Assembly (NCBI GenBank): GCA_002732905.1
Contig: NVTC01000005.1
Span: 22,859 to 33,143 of the forward strand
DNA: 10,285 nt
Source of the DNA: Robiginitomaculum sp.
GTDB taxonomy: Bacteria > Pseudomonadota > Alphaproteobacteria > Caulobacterales > Maricaulaceae
Direction: 5' to 3'
The number at the start of each line of letters is the position of its first letter. Within the stretch, counting starts at the first letter, position 1. Positions 4,653 through 10,285 of this stretch are shown piece by piece. The position numbers were made by a program, and so were the translations under genes. The notes beneath the pieces are model-generated. The model was not told the origin of the DNA. It saw only the letters and a program-made list of their open reading frames with translations, and ran no database searches.

Positions 4653-5858
4653 CTAGCTCGCAGCGAATTTCAGAAGCTTGATGGCATTAAAATCTTGAAT
4701 ACCGCCACCAACGCGCTTGGTCGTGTAGAACAGGACATATGGTTTGGCAGAATAAGGGTCGCGCAATACCCGTACGCCTTGACGGTCAACAATCAGATAA
4801 CCACGGCGAAAATCGCCAAAGGCAACTGAGTAACTATCAGTTGCGATATCCGGCATATCTTCAACTTCAACCAATGGATAGCCTAACAAAGATGACGGTT
4901 GTCCAGCCGCTTGAGCCGGTTGCCATATGTAATTACCGTCTGCGTCTTTAAACTTACGCAGAGCCCCAACCGTGCGGCGGTTCATCATAAAACTAGCACC
5001 CGACCGGTAACGGGGTTTGGGCGCATAGATCAAATCAATCAGCGCATCAATCGGCGCGGTACTATCGAATGCGGCGTCTGTACCCGTAGCCACATAACCG
5101 ACATTGCCCCAAGTATGGGATGCGTCTTCAACATTGGTGTAGTTCAGTATACCGCTCGGTTTATTGGTGCCATTACCATTGGTAAAAGCCGCCGTTTCTT
5201 GCGCTGCAAACACATTACGGACTTCATCAGCCAACCATTGATCCACATCCGCGACACCGTCGTCGAGTAGAATTTGTGTTGCGGCTGGCATTGCATAAAG
5301 TTCGCCAGTAGGAAAATCCAACAATTCCATTTGCGGCACAGTGGTTTCCGGACGGGCATCGGTTTCGCCTGCCCAACCCGAGGAAGCACCGCCGATACTG
5401 ACTGGTTTTTTAAAAGCGCCTGCACCAATACGCCGGATACTGGCGATGGAACGAAACGGTGAAGTTTCTGTCAAAGCACGATCAATGCGGCTTTCGGTTT
5501 CAGCCGGAGCAACATAACCGCCTTCTGCATCAACGCCTGCGCTTAAACCTTTGCTTTCCAGCAAAATCAAAGCACTGCCGTCGCCAGTACGGATATAAGA
5601 CGACCAAGCCGATTTAGCCTCGCCGTCTTCAGTGACTGCACCGAGTTGCGGCTGGGCGTTTTTGATGGACAAACGTTCTATACGGCTTGTTTGTTGATCA
5701 AGTGCCGCATTCAAACGCTCTACTTTATCGGTCAACAAAATGTCAGCCGATTGCTTGGATTCTATCTCGGCAAGCCGTTGATCATTTGCATTTTTAAATG
5801 CTGCGAAAGTTGCAGAAAAATCAGCCTGGGCAGTTAGTAGCTCGGCGGATTTTACCAT
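4653..5858 (-). CDS. g5: GTA major capsid protein g5 (HK97 fold)
   Basis: A 401-residue HK97-fold major capsid protein. Residues about 15-65 form a charged coiled coil that should act as the built-in scaffolding (delta) domain removed by g4 during maturation. The shell domain follows, with GVDAEGGYVAPAETESRI (108-125), FRSIASIRRIG, then GWAGETDARPETTVPQ, and later the conserved SFMMNRRTVGALRKFKD, QPSSLLGYPLVEVEDMP and AFGDFRRGYLIVDRQG. I chose ATG 5858 because AAGGA lies seven bases upstream. The open frame extends further up into the protease gene, but that part reads like protease-gene shadow. The gap to g4 is 35 bases. Two stem-loops follow the stop codon and may help make this transcript segment more abundant than the tail genes. 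Confidence 0.97.
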   Translation of the reverse strand: MVKSAELLTAQADFSATFAAFKNANDQRLAEIESKQSADILLTDKVERLNAALDQQTSRIERLSIKNAQPQLGAVTEDGEAKSAWSSYIRTGDGSALILLESKGLSAGVDAEGGYVAPAETESRIDRALTETSPFRSIASIRRIGAGAFKKPVSIGGASSGWAGETDARPETTVPQMELLDFPTGELYAMPAATQILLDDGVADVDQWLADEVRNVFAAQETAAFTNGNGTNKPSGILNYTNVEDASHTWGNVGYVATGTDAAFDSTAPIDALIDLIYAPKPRYRSGASFMMNRRTVGALRKFKDADGNYIWQPAQAAGQPSSLLGYPLVEVEDMPDIATDSYSVAFGDFRRGYLIVDRQGVRVLRDPYSAKPYVLFYTTKRVGGGIQDFNAIKLLKFAAS

Positions 5859-5893
5859 TTTTGTTTCCTTTTGAGGGGTGGTTTTGGAATTTC

Positions 5894-6403: not shown

Positions 6404-6643
6404 TTAGTTTTGGTCCTGATCGAGACGGTGCTCTATGCGTTCCAGAGACTGCCTTGCCATGGTCATTTGTTCTTCCATGCGGGCAATACGTTCGGCCATT
6501 GGTGGGCTGGTCATTGTTGTTTTTTCTAGGTTCTGCAACCGGGCTTCAGCCGCACCGCCCCACATCAGGGCACCTGCGCTTTGAATAGCCAAAGTCACTA
6601 TAATTCCGATACCAACTGTCCGGTCAAATTTAATGCCGTTCAT
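6404..6643 (-). CDS. g3.5: GTA g3.5-like small membrane/coiled-coil protein
   Basis: A 79-residue protein in the position of RcGTA g3.5, between portal and protease. Residues about 9-30 are hydrophobic enough for a single membrane helix (VGIGIIVTLAIQSAGALMW). Residues 50-76 form a charged amphipathic helix or coiled coil with Met, Arg and Glu repeats, ending in DQDQN. Its role is not known to me. A membrane anchor plus coiled coil would fit a protein that tethers assembling heads to the membrane or an accessory lysis factor, but nothing here proves either. The ATG at 6643 overlaps the portal stop by four bases (ATGA), so it is coupled to portal translation. Identification rests on position, size and architecture. 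Confidence 0.75.
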   Translation of the reverse strand: MNGIKFDRTVGIGIIVTLAIQSAGALMWGGAAEARLQNLEKTTMTSPPMAERIARMEEQMTMARQSLERIEHRLDQDQN

Positions 6644-7836
6644 TGCACCGCCTCAATCGGTAAGCCTGCACGCTCTCGTTTTTCGACTTCGCTCATGAAA
6701 GTTATATCGTTCAAGGCTTTCCAACGTGCCGCCCGTTCTAGTGTTAGAGCCGGAATAGTATCTTCGTCCGCTATAATGCGTAAATCGTCGCCGTACCAAT
6801 CCGCTAACCAAGTGCCGAGGCTATCAGCGGTTTTACGCACTAAAGGCAGAATAGTTTGCCGCCAGAACGCCAAATTGGCTTCTTTATAATTGGCGTAAGT
6901 ATTGTCGCCGGGTATGCCGAGCAACATGGGCGGCACACCAAATGCCAGAGCAATTTCCCGCGCCGCCTCACGCCGCGCATTCAAGAAGTCCATATCGGTC
7001 GGACTCATGCTCATCGCTTTCCAATCGAGACCACCCTCTAGGAGAAGTGGTCGCCCAGCCGCCCCTGCTCCTGAATGTTTACTATCCAGTTCGGATTTTA
7101 GCCGCTCGAACTGTTCTGCACTTAAATGTTCAGAGCCAGAAGTGCCTTTATAAATCAATGCACCACTTGGACGCGCTGAATTATCGAGCAAGGCCTTGGT
7201 CCAGACCCCGCCGGCATTGTGAACATCGATTGCTTTGGCGGCAGCAGCAAGCGGTGAAAAGCCGTAAATATCATCCGTAGGGTGAAATAGGCGCGCATGA
7301 TGAATGAGTGAGCGTCCACTATTTGGGTCAGTCGTAAAGCGCCGTTTTTTACTGCCGACCTCATAATCCCATCCAGTAGGCCAGCCCTTATGGTCGGTCA
7401 CGGCCCGCATTCTGTCCGGCCGTAAATTAAATAATGCGACAAGCCGACCATCGACAACAACTGCTTCTAAGAAGCTATCGCCGCTCAAGTGCAGGTAGCT
7501 ATAAAATGTTTCAAAAAATTCTGCACGGGAAATCTTGGGGCTTGGTTTGCGCAGTAAGCGCACTGCTGGGTTATCCCCAATGCACTCATTATCATTCCGT
7601 ACACATAACGGTACCGATGCCGCCGCTTCTGCTATCAAGCGTATACAGCGATAAGCAATAGCATTTTGTTGGTAACCTTCACGCGCCAAAGCAGCGTAAT
7701 TGCGCGGGGTCCACTTAGCGGAATGGGCAGAATAGGCAGAATTTGCCAATTGTAAGGCCACCAAAGGCATTCCGGAATTGGTATTCGATTTAGTTTGCGG
7801 TGAACGAACAAACGCTGCCTGCAGCCAATTTTTCAT
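6640..7836 (-). CDS. g3: GTA portal protein g3 (HK97-family portal)
   Basis: A 398-residue HK97-type portal protein (Phage_portal family), the ring at one head vertex through which the terminase pumps DNA and to which g6 docks. Clear features are the early NAIAYRCIRLIAEAAASVPL helix (58-77), ISRAEFFETFYSYLHLSGDSFLE, the ALFNLRPDRMRAV region, the IYGFSPLAAAAKAIDVHNAG segment, LLLEGGLDWKAMSMSPTDMDFL, then REIALAFGVPPMLLGIPGDNTYANYKEA and the final ARWKALNDITFMSEVEKRERAGLP. The length matches RcGTA g3. ATG 7836 has only a weak ribosome site, and the bases just before it can pair with a distant upstream stretch. Unlike RcGTA, the gene does not follow the terminase directly: two other genes and 158 non-coding bases intervene. 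Its stop overlaps the next start by four bases. Confidence 0.97.
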   Translation of the reverse strand: MKNWLQAAFVRSPQTKSNTNSGMPLVALQLANSAYSAHSAKWTPRNYAALAREGYQQNAIAYRCIRLIAEAAASVPLCVRNDNECIGDNPAVRLLRKPSPKISRAEFFETFYSYLHLSGDSFLEAVVVDGRLVALFNLRPDRMRAVTDHKGWPTGWDYEVGSKKRRFTTDPNSGRSLIHHARLFHPTDDIYGFSPLAAAAKAIDVHNAGGVWTKALLDNSARPSGALIYKGTSGSEHLSAEQFERLKSELDSKHSGAGAAGRPLLLEGGLDWKAMSMSPTDMDFLNARREAAREIALAFGVPPMLLGIPGDNTYANYKEANLAFWRQTILPLVRKTADSLGTWLADWYGDDLRIIADEDTIPALTLERAARWKALNDITFMSEVEKRERAGLPIEAVQ

Positions 7837-7994: not shown

Positions 7995-8438
7995 TTAAGC
8001 GGCACCCATCAAGGATACAGTTTGGGTACGTTCACCTTTGCCGACATAATTCATTGCCAAAGCATAGCTTTTACGGGCATCAAGGCGCAGGTCTTGCGCG
8101 CCGATCATGGATGCAATTGTAATGGCACCACGGTAAGCAATAATAGCTGCTTCAATTGCTGACATGTCATCTTCGTTTTTACCAATGTTCAAAAGTACAT
8201 CACCAAGTTTTTTCTGCACGCGGGCAGTATCAACTTGAACTGTGTCTTGAAAATAATATTTTTCCGACGAACGCAGAGCATTCACCGCGTCAATGAGCGG
8301 TTTTACTTCGCCAGTTTCATGGGCTAAAGCAATCATGCGCAGTGCAATTTCGCGGTTAAGCTTTGTGAGTTCAACAGTAGCGTCTTTGTGCCTACGTAGA
8401 ATGTTGAACTTGTGGCTCTTTTTCTGAGCAATGGCCAT
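7995..8438 (-). CDS. Helical TPR-like protein of unknown function, inserted between terminase and portal
   Basis: A 147-residue protein I do not recognise as a GTA component. It starts with a basic segment (AQKKSHKFNILRRHKD) and is otherwise predicted helical. The segment VQKKLGDVLLNIGKNEDDMSAIEAAIIAYRGAITIAS (about 74-110), with LRLDARKSYALAMNYVGKGE after it, has the small-large residue spacing of tetratricopeptide-like helix pairs, which suggests a protein-binding role. There is no signal peptide or membrane helix. ATG 8438 is chosen because GGAG lies six bases upstream; an in-frame GTG ten codons earlier lacks this. A perfect CtrA-type box lies about 50 bases upstream. A hand count over 240 bases gives about 43% GC, against about 53% in the portal gene, which suggests separate origin. 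It could be an adaptor or regulator of GTA production or an unrelated cargo gene. Confidence 0.8.
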   Translation of the reverse strand: MAIAQKKSHKFNILRRHKDATVELTKLNREIALRMIALAHETGEVKPLIDAVNALRSSEKYYFQDTVQVDTARVQKKLGDVLLNIGKNEDDMSAIEAAIIAYRGAITIASMIGAQDLRLDARKSYALAMNYVGKGERTQTVSLMGAA

Positions 8439-8528: not shown

Positions 8529-9038
8529 TTAATAAAGTTGTCGCCATATATCACGCGAAACATGTTCAAAATCATCTCCGATTTTGATCCGTAATAATTT
8601 TAACCCGGCGTGTCCAAATATAGCATTCTTAAAATTATCAAGCATTTTCGCTTCAGTGTTTGCATGCGAACGTCCGTCCAATTCAATTGCACATAAAAAC
8701 CGCCCGCTTGCGTCACAAAGAACAAAATCCACATGCCTTGATTTTATTCGTGCGCGGTATTGCCAGCGTAAACGTCCTTCTTGTTCAGAAGGCCTAACGC
8801 GTAAAATATCTTCCAATCTGACTTTTGCCATAACATGCAAGCCGTCCGGTTTATATCGATTGAGCGCAGCAAACAAAGCAAGTTCTGATCGGTTGACAAA
8901 CAAGCTCTGTCTTAATTGATAGCTTTGTAAAGTTGCCACATCTGCTTGCGTACTTCGCGGGTCTAGCCATTTTGGACGGTGTAGGAGAAACCCCAACACC
9001 AGTAAAATACAGACGAATATGATTCCTAGCACCTCCAT
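8529..9038 (-). CDS. Membrane-anchored DUF2726 protein, nuclease-fold-like, inserted after the terminase
   Basis: A 169-residue protein with an N-terminal membrane helix (about 2-19, GIIFVCILLVLGFLL) and a DUF2726 domain (about 45-165). The domain shows NRSELALFAAL (E52), RHVDFVLCDASGRFLCAIEL (D104, D109, E119) and LDGRSH (D121, H125), then a helix and KLLRIKIG. DUF2726 is related to Vsr/PD-(D/E)XK nucleases; the D...ExD spacing fits an active-site core, but I cannot prove catalysis. No DUF2726 gene belongs to the RcGTA order. ATG 9038 has no Shine-Dalgarno sequence. An exact LexA box stops two bases before it, so the message may be leaderless or nearly so. A hand count over 300 bases gives about 42% GC, against about 54% in terminase samples. 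Related proteins occur widely in bacteria, so it may be an acquired DNA-metabolism gene. Confidence 0.85.
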   Translation of the reverse strand: MEVLGIIFVCILLVLGFLLHRPKWLDPRSTQADVATLQSYQLRQSLFVNRSELALFAALNRYKPDGLHVMAKVRLEDILRVRPSEQEGRLRWQYRARIKSRHVDFVLCDASGRFLCAIELDGRSHANTEAKMLDNFKNAIFGHAGLKLLRIKIGDDFEHVSRDIWRQLY

Positions 9039-9040
9039 AA

Positions 9041-9055
9041 GAACACATAGTGAAC
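9041..9055 (-). promoter_or_regulatory. LexA (SOS) box directly upstream of the DUF2726 gene
   Basis: The minus strand reads GTTCACTATGTGTTC, an exact GTTC-N7-GTTC direct repeat, the LexA-binding consensus of Alphaproteobacteria. It lies in the 40-base gap between terminase and DUF2726 and ends two bases before the start codon. Bound LexA would block RNA polymerase or the start of the message. In a by-eye scan of both strands this was the only exact match in the window; the next best has an N8 spacer inside g11. Confidence 0.72.
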
Positions 9056-9078
9056 AACATTGCCCCCTACCGCAAGCC

Positions 9079-10285
9079 CTATATCATACGAATTTGCGGT
9101 TTACGTCTCGGCTTGAGCAACAAATCTGTCACTGCCCACACCAAAGCATCTGCACGGTCTGGAGATTTACGCGGCCCCTCATGTGCCCCCCCATGCGCCC
9201 CCATAGAACATAACTCGTCTTCCAACTCTGGAAAGCTGCCAACATGTTTGACTTTACCTTGCTCATATAATGCCGCAACGGGTTCGGCGCGGGCCACTTT
9301 GGGCTTAGAAGCATATACGGTACTTACAGGTGCTTCACTACCAATAGCCTGCAATATAGATTTCACCATTTCGCCGCCTTGGTTAATTTCGGCCAGCAAA
9401 TAATCCGCGTCCCATTCATGCCACAACTTCACAGCCAACGCTGCCCATTTATCGGGCCGTAAACCTTGCACCGTTGCATCGTGCAATATGAAGACACGTG
9501 CCTGTGCGCCGAACCCGGCACGACCTGCAACAATCAAACCACAAGCATCCGCTTTGGCTCCTGAACTAGCGGGTGGGTCGATAGCCACCACTATCTTTTG
9601 TAAATCGGGCGGGGCCGCGTTAACCACAACATCATCGATCAGCTTACGCGTCCACAATGCTCCCTCCGCGTCCTCAATAATTTCGCCGCCAAGCTCTTGC
9701 CGCCCCAAGTGTGTACCGCCGTAAATTTCATATACGGATTGCAGGAAGGCCTTAGACAAGTTTTTTGCATTATCCTTAGTCGTCGCACGGGATACTACAA
9801 CGCCCGGGTCTGTCATTAATTTCTTTAACACAGCACTCGGTTTGGGCGTTGTAGTAATTACCAGTTTCGGCTCAACACCCAGACGAAGTCCCAAACGTAA
9901 ATTCGACAACGCATCTTCGGGATAAGCCCACGCACAAAATTCGTCGGCCCAAGCGAGGTCAAATTGCGGCCCCCGAAGTCCGTCCGGATCTTCGGCGGAG
10001 AACACTTGTCCCACGGCACCGTTTGGCCATTGCAACAATCGCCTTGATGGCAAATATTGCGGCCTATCCATTTCGTTGCCAATATTAAGCAACCCGCTCT
10101 CGCCAGCAATCATTACCTCGCGGGCATCATTATAACTCGGTGCCACAAGGGCTACACGTCGTGCACCTGCTTTCACTTGTTCAGCAACCCACTCCGCCCC
10201 TGCACGGGTTTTGCCAGCCCCACGACCGCCTAGCAAAAGCCAAATGAGCCATTTTTCGTCCGGTGGCGTTTGATCAGGGCGGCGG
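9079..10285 (-). CDS. g2: GTA large terminase subunit g2 (5' end cut by window edge)
   Basis: The ATPase-nuclease motor that packages DNA into GTA heads. The frame is open to the right edge, so the true start is outside; 401 residues are visible. Numbering from the first whole codon (10284), Walker A GGRGAGKT is at 19-26 (10207-10230) and is preceded by DEKWLIWLLL. Walker B is FDLAWADEF with D114 and E115, followed by the ITTTPKP coupling motif. The C-terminal RNase H-like nuclease domain shows D236 in VVAIDPP, E299 in YLLAEINQGG, and D376/D379 in SPDRADALVWAV. All catalytic residues are present, so it looks active. The stop TAG at 9079-9081 is followed by 40 bases with the LexA box and then the DUF2726 gene, not by the portal as in RcGTA. 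A TTG at 10236 could look like a start but lies inside the ATPase motif. Confidence 0.97.
   Translation of the reverse strand, partial: RRPDQTPPDEKWLIWLLLGGRGAGKTRAGAEWVAEQVKAGARRVALVAPSYNDAREVMIAGESGLLNIGNEMDRPQYLPSRRLLQWPNGAVGQVFSAEDPDGLRGPQFDLAWADEFCAWAYPEDALSNLRLGLRLGVEPKLVITTTPKPSAVLKKLMTDPGVVVSRATTKDNAKNLSKAFLQSVYEIYGGTHLGRQELGGEIIEDAEGALWTRKLIDDVVVNAAPPDLQKIVVAIDPPASSGAKADACGLIVAGRAGFGAQARVFILHDATVQGLRPDKWAALAVKLWHEWDADYLLAEINQGGEMVKSILQAIGSEAPVSTVYASKPKVARAEPVAALYEQGKVKHVGSFPELEDELCSMGAHGGAHEGPRKSPDRADALVWAVTDLLLKPRRKPQIRMI

Follow-up and report, generated by a model that had tools for sequence, protein, structure and literature searches.

The window analysed here, a stretch of 10,285 nucleotides (nt) from Robiginitomaculum sp. 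(contig NVTC01000005.1), carries a gene transfer agent (GTA) cluster, and between the terminase and portal genes of that cluster sits a passenger gene, DUF2726, immediately preceded by a 15-base site of the form GTTC-N7-GTTC. Comparison across the family makes it very probable that this site, in what is likely the DUF2726 promoter, is a LexA operator through which DNA damage would switch the gene on as part of the SOS response. The motif, its position, its tie to DUF2726 across genera and the presence of the same motif before lexA are direct observations.

The box ends 2 nt before the DUF2726 start codon (9036-9038), inside a 40-nt gap, and in both position and sequence agrees with the first-pass annotation, which had reported an exact LexA-type motif two bases before the gene. 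It is the only exact match to GTTC-N7-GTTC in the whole window, which is unremarkable and, for one window alone, weak evidence, as dinucleotide shuffling of the window yields 0.20 exact matches on average, with one or more in 35 of the 200 shuffled versions. For the gap itself, base shuffles give an expectation of 0.0012 exact boxes, close to the one in a thousand gaps estimated at first pass. The window's own genome (G000; 1.97 Mb, 74% complete) contains 38 exact matches against 75 for a backwards control pattern, so that a match alone proves little; some of the 38 precede SOS genes (lexA, recA, ssb and a gene for a DinB-type polymerase), and many of the 30 whose surroundings were fetched lie within open reading frames (ORFs). 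What raises the box above the chance level is its conservation. When 137 family genomes were searched with a DUF2726 alignment, 43 gave a match at E <= 1e-3, of which 33 were strong (E <= 6.1e-32), and in 21 of these 33 DUF2726 follows directly after the terminase, across a gap of 28-84 nt. An exact box occurs in 12 of the 21 gaps, against 0.025 predicted by base shuffles of the same gaps, and the 12 boxes have one common orientation and 11 different spacers. By genus, the box is present in six of eight gaps in the window's genus (g1), in five of five in g12, in one of four in g18, and in none of the four contributed together by g16, g6, g2 and g9. With the window excluded, five of the seven same-genus genomes that keep DUF2726 conserve it, and the prediction thus withstood the test named for it at the outset, conservation in close relatives that keep the gene.

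The remaining 12 strong homologs are not adjacent to the terminase: six lie 0.7-3.4 kb from it, and the others come from G102 and five g19 genomes, in which no terminase matched at E <= 1e-20. None of the 12 has a box between -260 and +60, the interval from which the box status of G086, G102, G103 and G107 was read, and no exact box occurs over this interval in any of the 21 boxless strong genomes, one-mismatch boxes near DUF2726 (G141, G144, G083, G090) being scored as no box. Environmental fragments provided 14 further loci with DUF2726 homologs, five of which have an exact box in the terminase-DUF2726 gap (L241, L242, L244, L250, L253); new sequence comes only from L242 and L250, since L241, L244 and L253 are closely related to the window, G011 and G068, respectively. 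Two fragments (L243, L254) end before the gap, six show no box upstream of DUF2726 in the available stretch (90 nt in L246, 219 nt in L247), and in L249 a box lies 218 nt before the DUF2726 match, within a terminase-DUF2726 stretch of about 510 nt.

The gene that the box serves is indicated by clusters that lack one or another of its neighbours. Controls were taken from the 83 terminase-positive genomes without a strong DUF2726 match (110 less 27), in 44 of which the stretch behind the terminase was read. None of the 44 control clusters has a box between 20 nt before and 600 nt after the terminase stop codon, nor was a DUF2726 homolog found in the stretches read (Fisher p 7e-8 for 12/21 against 0/44, a value that overstates the evidence, the genomes being related). 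Four of these controls are same-genus clusters with the order terminase-ORF-portal, and G008, the closest by terminase (86%), is without DUF2726 and without the box and retains GGCTTG just after the terminase stop codon. Conversely, Hellea balneolensis (G024, 99% complete) retains terminase, box, DUF2726 and the next ORF, and neither portal (E <= 1e-20) nor capsid (E <= 1e-10) was found in it. The persistence of the box in Hellea and its absence from the controls together mean, most likely, that it serves DUF2726; in this family it accompanies DUF2726 where that gene sits behind the terminase. In g19, a genus with no terminase match, the pair formed by DUF2726 and the ORF behind it persists without a box in the two genomes read. 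At these two loci (L155, L156) the pair of DUF2726 and a gene for a tetratricopeptide repeat (TPR)-like protein adjoins genes that by eye resemble purA and nad, and it is evidently able to exist outside GTAs.

The same clusters bear on the suggestion, also made by the first-pass annotation, that the site might control the transcript continuing into the portal genes. If the main role of the box lay with the head genes, transcription from the site into portal, protease and capsid would be under LexA control and DUF2726 a bystander. Such an arrangement would agree with the placing of all these genes on one strand, with a search for terminator-like sites that found none on the minus strand between 7700 and 9200, and with the Caulobacter portal junctions and the published data on ccna_02877 described below; yet none of the 44 clusters without an adjacent DUF2726, four same-genus ones with portal genes among them, has the box, and Hellea keeps it with no portal or capsid found. 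This alternative we hold to be rather unlikely, and control of the portal genes in the window's lineage was rejected on both counts. The first-pass annotation named the site and its likely target correctly, a LexA-type site within a GTA structural cluster and aimed, as conservation indicates, at the inserted DUF2726, and was probably mistaken about the head genes of this lineage, although its wider idea of head-gene control may hold in Caulobacter.

How LexA might act on DUF2726 is suggested by the layout of the gaps. In g12 the box falls, in five of five genomes, within the 17 nt that separate a TTGTAA, itself overlapping the stop codon of the terminase, from a hexamer at the place of a -10 element (TATGAT, TAAAAT, TAGTTG, TATTAT or TATTAA), the ATG following 5-6 nt further. 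Four of the five hexamers have 4-5 matches to TATAAT, and TAGTTG is a poor -10; given this layout, LexA would sit on the promoter and transcription would be predicted to begin at the ATG or beside it. In the window's genus the box stands 1-2 nt before the ATG, and in all six boxed genomes it encloses a poor -10 that TTG(C/T) precedes by 17-18 nt, this TTG(C/T) recurring at a like position in eight of eight same-genus gaps shown, two of them boxless. By inspection, no Shine-Dalgarno-like sequence precedes the DUF2726 ATG; leaderless mRNAs, 375 of them, are documented in Caulobacter (PMC4117421). LexA would accordingly be expected to occupy the DUF2726 promoter and block RNA polymerase, RecA-driven cleavage of LexA would free it, and the resulting mRNA would be leaderless, beginning at or next to the ATG. 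It has been suggested for the internal LexA box of Caulobacter vsrA that elongation is blocked (PMC12907096), and LexA could likewise be a roadblock here, to polymerase coming from the terminase promoter and not at a promoter of its own; the site does lie within a one-strand gene run and the -10 of the window is poor, but the promoter-like 17-nt spacer that encloses the box throughout g12, with a -10 of 4-5 matches to TATAAT in four of the five genomes, makes a roadblock quite unlikely.

The genomes concerned encode the repressor and display the same motif at its gene. The window's own genome has a lexA (Pfam LexA_DNA_bind and Peptidase_S24) with the exact motif 65 nt before its ATG, and its recA likewise has GTTC-N7-GTTC upstream. 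A search of 29 relatives for LexA was positive in 28 (none in G005; G083 has a second, weak match), and in all 28 exact GTTC-N7-GTTC stands just upstream of lexA, including genomes that are boxless at DUF2726, so that absence of the box reflects its loss or its never having been gained, and not an altered LexA motif. The window box hence combines an exact motif, a location at a gene start and promoter that is conserved with the gene and missing from the controls, and a genome encoding LexA with the motif at its own lexA. That the repeat should instead be the site of another repressor, RogA-like or a phage-type regulator, is very improbable: the Caulobacter GTA does have further regulators, the LexA-like RogA among them (PMC9632790), but the motif is the one found before lexA throughout these relatives and the one published for LexA of Caulobacter (PMC12700426). 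A chance match, for which the shuffled-window and whole-genome counts leave ample room, is hardly credible and was rejected in view of the frequency of the box in the gaps and its 11 different spacers, which refute it unless the half-sites serve another protein.

Several observations weigh against the operator reading or parts of it. The box is missing in nine of the 21 adjacent gaps, two of the eight in the window's genus included, and on a tree of 32 proteins (G085 was left out of it and counted among the 12 genomes with DUF2726 elsewhere) it requires six gains or losses, a number as low being reached in 3 of 500 shuffles. A consensus scan detected no sigma-70-like promoter on the minus strand at the window's site, where the -10 is poor; the scan is blind to the window promoter, which we can therefore only infer. 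As to the product of the gene, its nuclease reading rests on fold, Foldseek E-values all exceed 0.01, and the match to MTES_1575 (23.1 bits) is below the cut-off of 38.2.

Three groups of matches elsewhere in the window's genome are recorded in their own right. The pattern GTTCACT[AG]TATGTTC, with five matches, was not used as a best LexA consensus, because four of them coincide with the start codons of copies of one repeated GIY-YIG ORF, a diverged copy of which holds the fifth. These loci (L006, L010, L012, L018, L030) hold copies of the ORF (MFYTYILASK..., one scoring 59.8 bits with Pfam GIY-YIG) flanked by GGCGGGAATCC-type repeats, with the ATG within the box in four, and their boxes are either a coincidence of the repeat or the mark of a LexA-controlled family of mobile nucleases. 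At L015:1501-1515, GTTCGATATATGTTC separates a DUF2130 gene (231.5 bits) from a large divergent gene that looks hydrolase-like by eye, and marks another candidate SOS gene. At L020:1501-1515, an ORF for a RuBisCO large chain (376 bits) starts 19 nt after an exact GTTC-N7-GTTC, probably by chance, and RuBisCO in this genome is notable in itself.

The protein encoded by DUF2726 scores 84.7 bits with its Pfam family against a gathering cut-off of 24.7, and all 69 members of the alignment match the family. It probably has an N-terminal apolar helix lying in the membrane, and also a domain predicted to adopt a Vsr-like PD-(D/E)XK nuclease fold. Across the 69 sequences E119, D121, G122 and K137 are invariant, and D104 and H125 are conserved in at least 90%; by resemblance these residues may form a putative catalytic set. 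Apart from a weak DpdF match (E 0.0033) PADLOC returned nothing, and a sequence search of the PDB brought up only a periplasmic binding protein, weakly matched (E 0.1). Judging from the fold and the control, one may guess that the product, at the membrane, processes or repairs damaged or incoming DNA during the SOS response.

The cluster around DUF2726 reads, in minus-strand order, terminase, DUF2726, a small helical protein, portal, a 79-aa protein, protease, capsid, connectors, tail and baseplate (Table 1). Among ten proteins scanned, eight NCBIfam models exceed their cut-offs (TIGR01537, TIGR01554, TIGR02215, TIGR01560, TIGR01563, TIGR02217, TIGR02218, TIGR02219), TIGR02217 being the Rcc01695 family and TIGR02218 the phage/gene transfer agent baseplate hub protein, and the terminase and protease were identified by Pfam. 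This ordered set of terminase, portal, protease, capsid, connector, tail and baseplate genes is that of a cluster of the type of the Rhodobacter capsulatus GTA (RcGTA), known here from its genes. The small TPR-like protein has no Pfam match above cut-off and is kept behind the terminase in four of four same-genus clusters without DUF2726; structure matches were discarded as a guide to its function, consisting of generic helical repeats, many of them designed proteins. The IMG/VR viral contigs L241-L254 include fragments resembling chromosomal GTA clusters.

Table 1. Coordinates in the window of the predicted operator and of the genes and elements around it.
Feature	Position	Strand	Basis or remark
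GTA large terminase	9079-10284	minus	Pfam Terminase_6N and Terminase_6C; 5' end beyond window edge
Gap from terminase stop to DUF2726 ATG, 40 nt	9039-9078	minus	contains the box and the likely promoter
TTGCGG, candidate -35 element, weak	9070-9075	minus	TTG(C/T) conservation
LexA-type box GTTCACTATGTGTTC, predicted LexA operator	9041-9055	minus	exact GTTC-N7-GTTC
DUF2726 gene, ORF of 169 aa	8529-9038	minus	Pfam PF10881
Small TPR-like helical protein, behind terminase or DUF2726	7995-8438	minus	
GTA portal protein	6640-7836	minus	NCBIfam TIGR01537, Pfam Phage_portal
GTA major capsid protein	4653-5867	minus	NCBIfam TIGR01554
GTA baseplate hub protein	624-1280	minus	NCBIfam TIGR02218

A second junction with a box emerged from an order-wide search with the portal protein (299 genomes), in which the cluster region was read in 20 genomes of family f3, including all 14 of genus g28 with a portal match (g28 includes Caulobacter zeae and Caulobacter sp. 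602-2). In 13 of these 14 Caulobacter genomes the portal gene is preceded by an exact box (L255-L265, L267, L268), which ends 16-29 nt short of the portal ATG (21 nt in G190), with GGAG in between in ten and GAGG in three. An antisense DUF559-like gene, verified against Pfam in one case, accompanies the box in each of the 12 box-bearing junctions that could be seen whole; G290 lacks both, and in G337 the terminase side is cut off. The Caulobacter junctions examined yielded no DUF2726 homolog. At the junction of the remaining six f3 genomes there is no box, two of these genomes (G361, G058) showing no terminase in the stretch read, and 40 further junctions (f2, f4, f5, f3) yielded no box, with no terminase within the 2.2 kb read in four and a DUF559-like match in one (L276). 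The closeness of the Caulobacter box to the portal ATG favours the portal as the gene served, but DUF559, which co-occurs with the box, may be its target instead. In published work, ccna_02877 is listed as having a LexA-bound promoter and as induced, and was excluded for missing the false discovery rate (FDR) cut (PMC12700426), and CCNA_02877 is elsewhere the GTA portal (PMC9632790); in the literature searched, where only these two papers name CCNA_02877, we found no statement that joins the two facts, and 'gene transfer' does not occur in PMC12700426. As a terminator follows the Caulobacter terminase gene and is read through by GafZ (PMC11150451), transcription starting under LexA control ahead of the portal would begin beyond this terminator. 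CCNA_02876, called Vsr-like and 3.8-fold up in SOS-on cells (PMC12907096), could not be placed: its number implies a portal neighbour, but in the loci read the DUF559 ORF sits between terminase and portal.

Set beside known systems, the arrangement in the window has partial counterparts. The LexA regulon of Caulobacter crescentus uses the same GTTCN7GTTC operator, and lexA bears the motif there as in the window's genome (PMC12700426), but the Caulobacter box in question precedes the portal gene and that of the window precedes DUF2726. In Dinoroseobacter shibae an in silico LexA site also falls within the GTA cluster (Dshi_2167/2168), differing in gene order and genes; it was found with a matrix at a cut-off of 82.5%, and the accessible text shows no conservation for it (PMC6473078, which does not name DUF2726). 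LexA control of RcGTA in R. capsulatus is a further instance of the SOS regulator touching GTA biology, but there LexA, which is needed, is described as acting via cckA, apparently, by a precise mechanism called unknown (PMC9638019). VsrA (CCNA_02930), an SOS-induced Vsr-like DUF559 nuclease of Caulobacter, is of the PD-(D/E)XK type predicted for the DUF2726 protein and its gene has an exact LexA box, yet that box is inside the ORF, and the accessible text mentions neither a GTA placement nor a membrane helix (PMC12907096). DUF2726 itself has been called a DNase of the restriction endonuclease fold, its domain fused to AbiJ-NTD3 (PMC3710099), whereas the window has a short protein with an N-terminal apolar helix. 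A literature search, judged mostly by titles and the openings of abstracts, brought up no description of a LexA box-DUF2726 arrangement in a GTA cluster.

What stands out most as new is that a LexA box together with a predicted Vsr-like gene recurs at the terminase-portal junction in two lineages, one of which is a laboratory genus. We tentatively propose, as a possibility and not the likelier course, that this junction in Caulobacterales-type GTAs is a recurrent SOS port, where two lineages or more have acquired a LexA operator along with a gene for a Vsr-like nuclease (DUF2726 in Robiginitomaculum, Hellea and their kin, and in Caulobacter an antisense DUF559), so that DNA damage might directly add the nuclease, and in Caulobacter also the portal and the head genes behind it, to cells that produce or receive GTAs, bypassing GafYZ control. 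The Caulobacter comparative data (13/14 genomes), together with the remark on ccna_02877 in the LexA chromatin immunoprecipitation (ChIP) and RNA-seq study (PMC12700426), point to the GTA portal promoter. A LexA operator conserved within the head cluster would connect DNA damage to GTAs directly.
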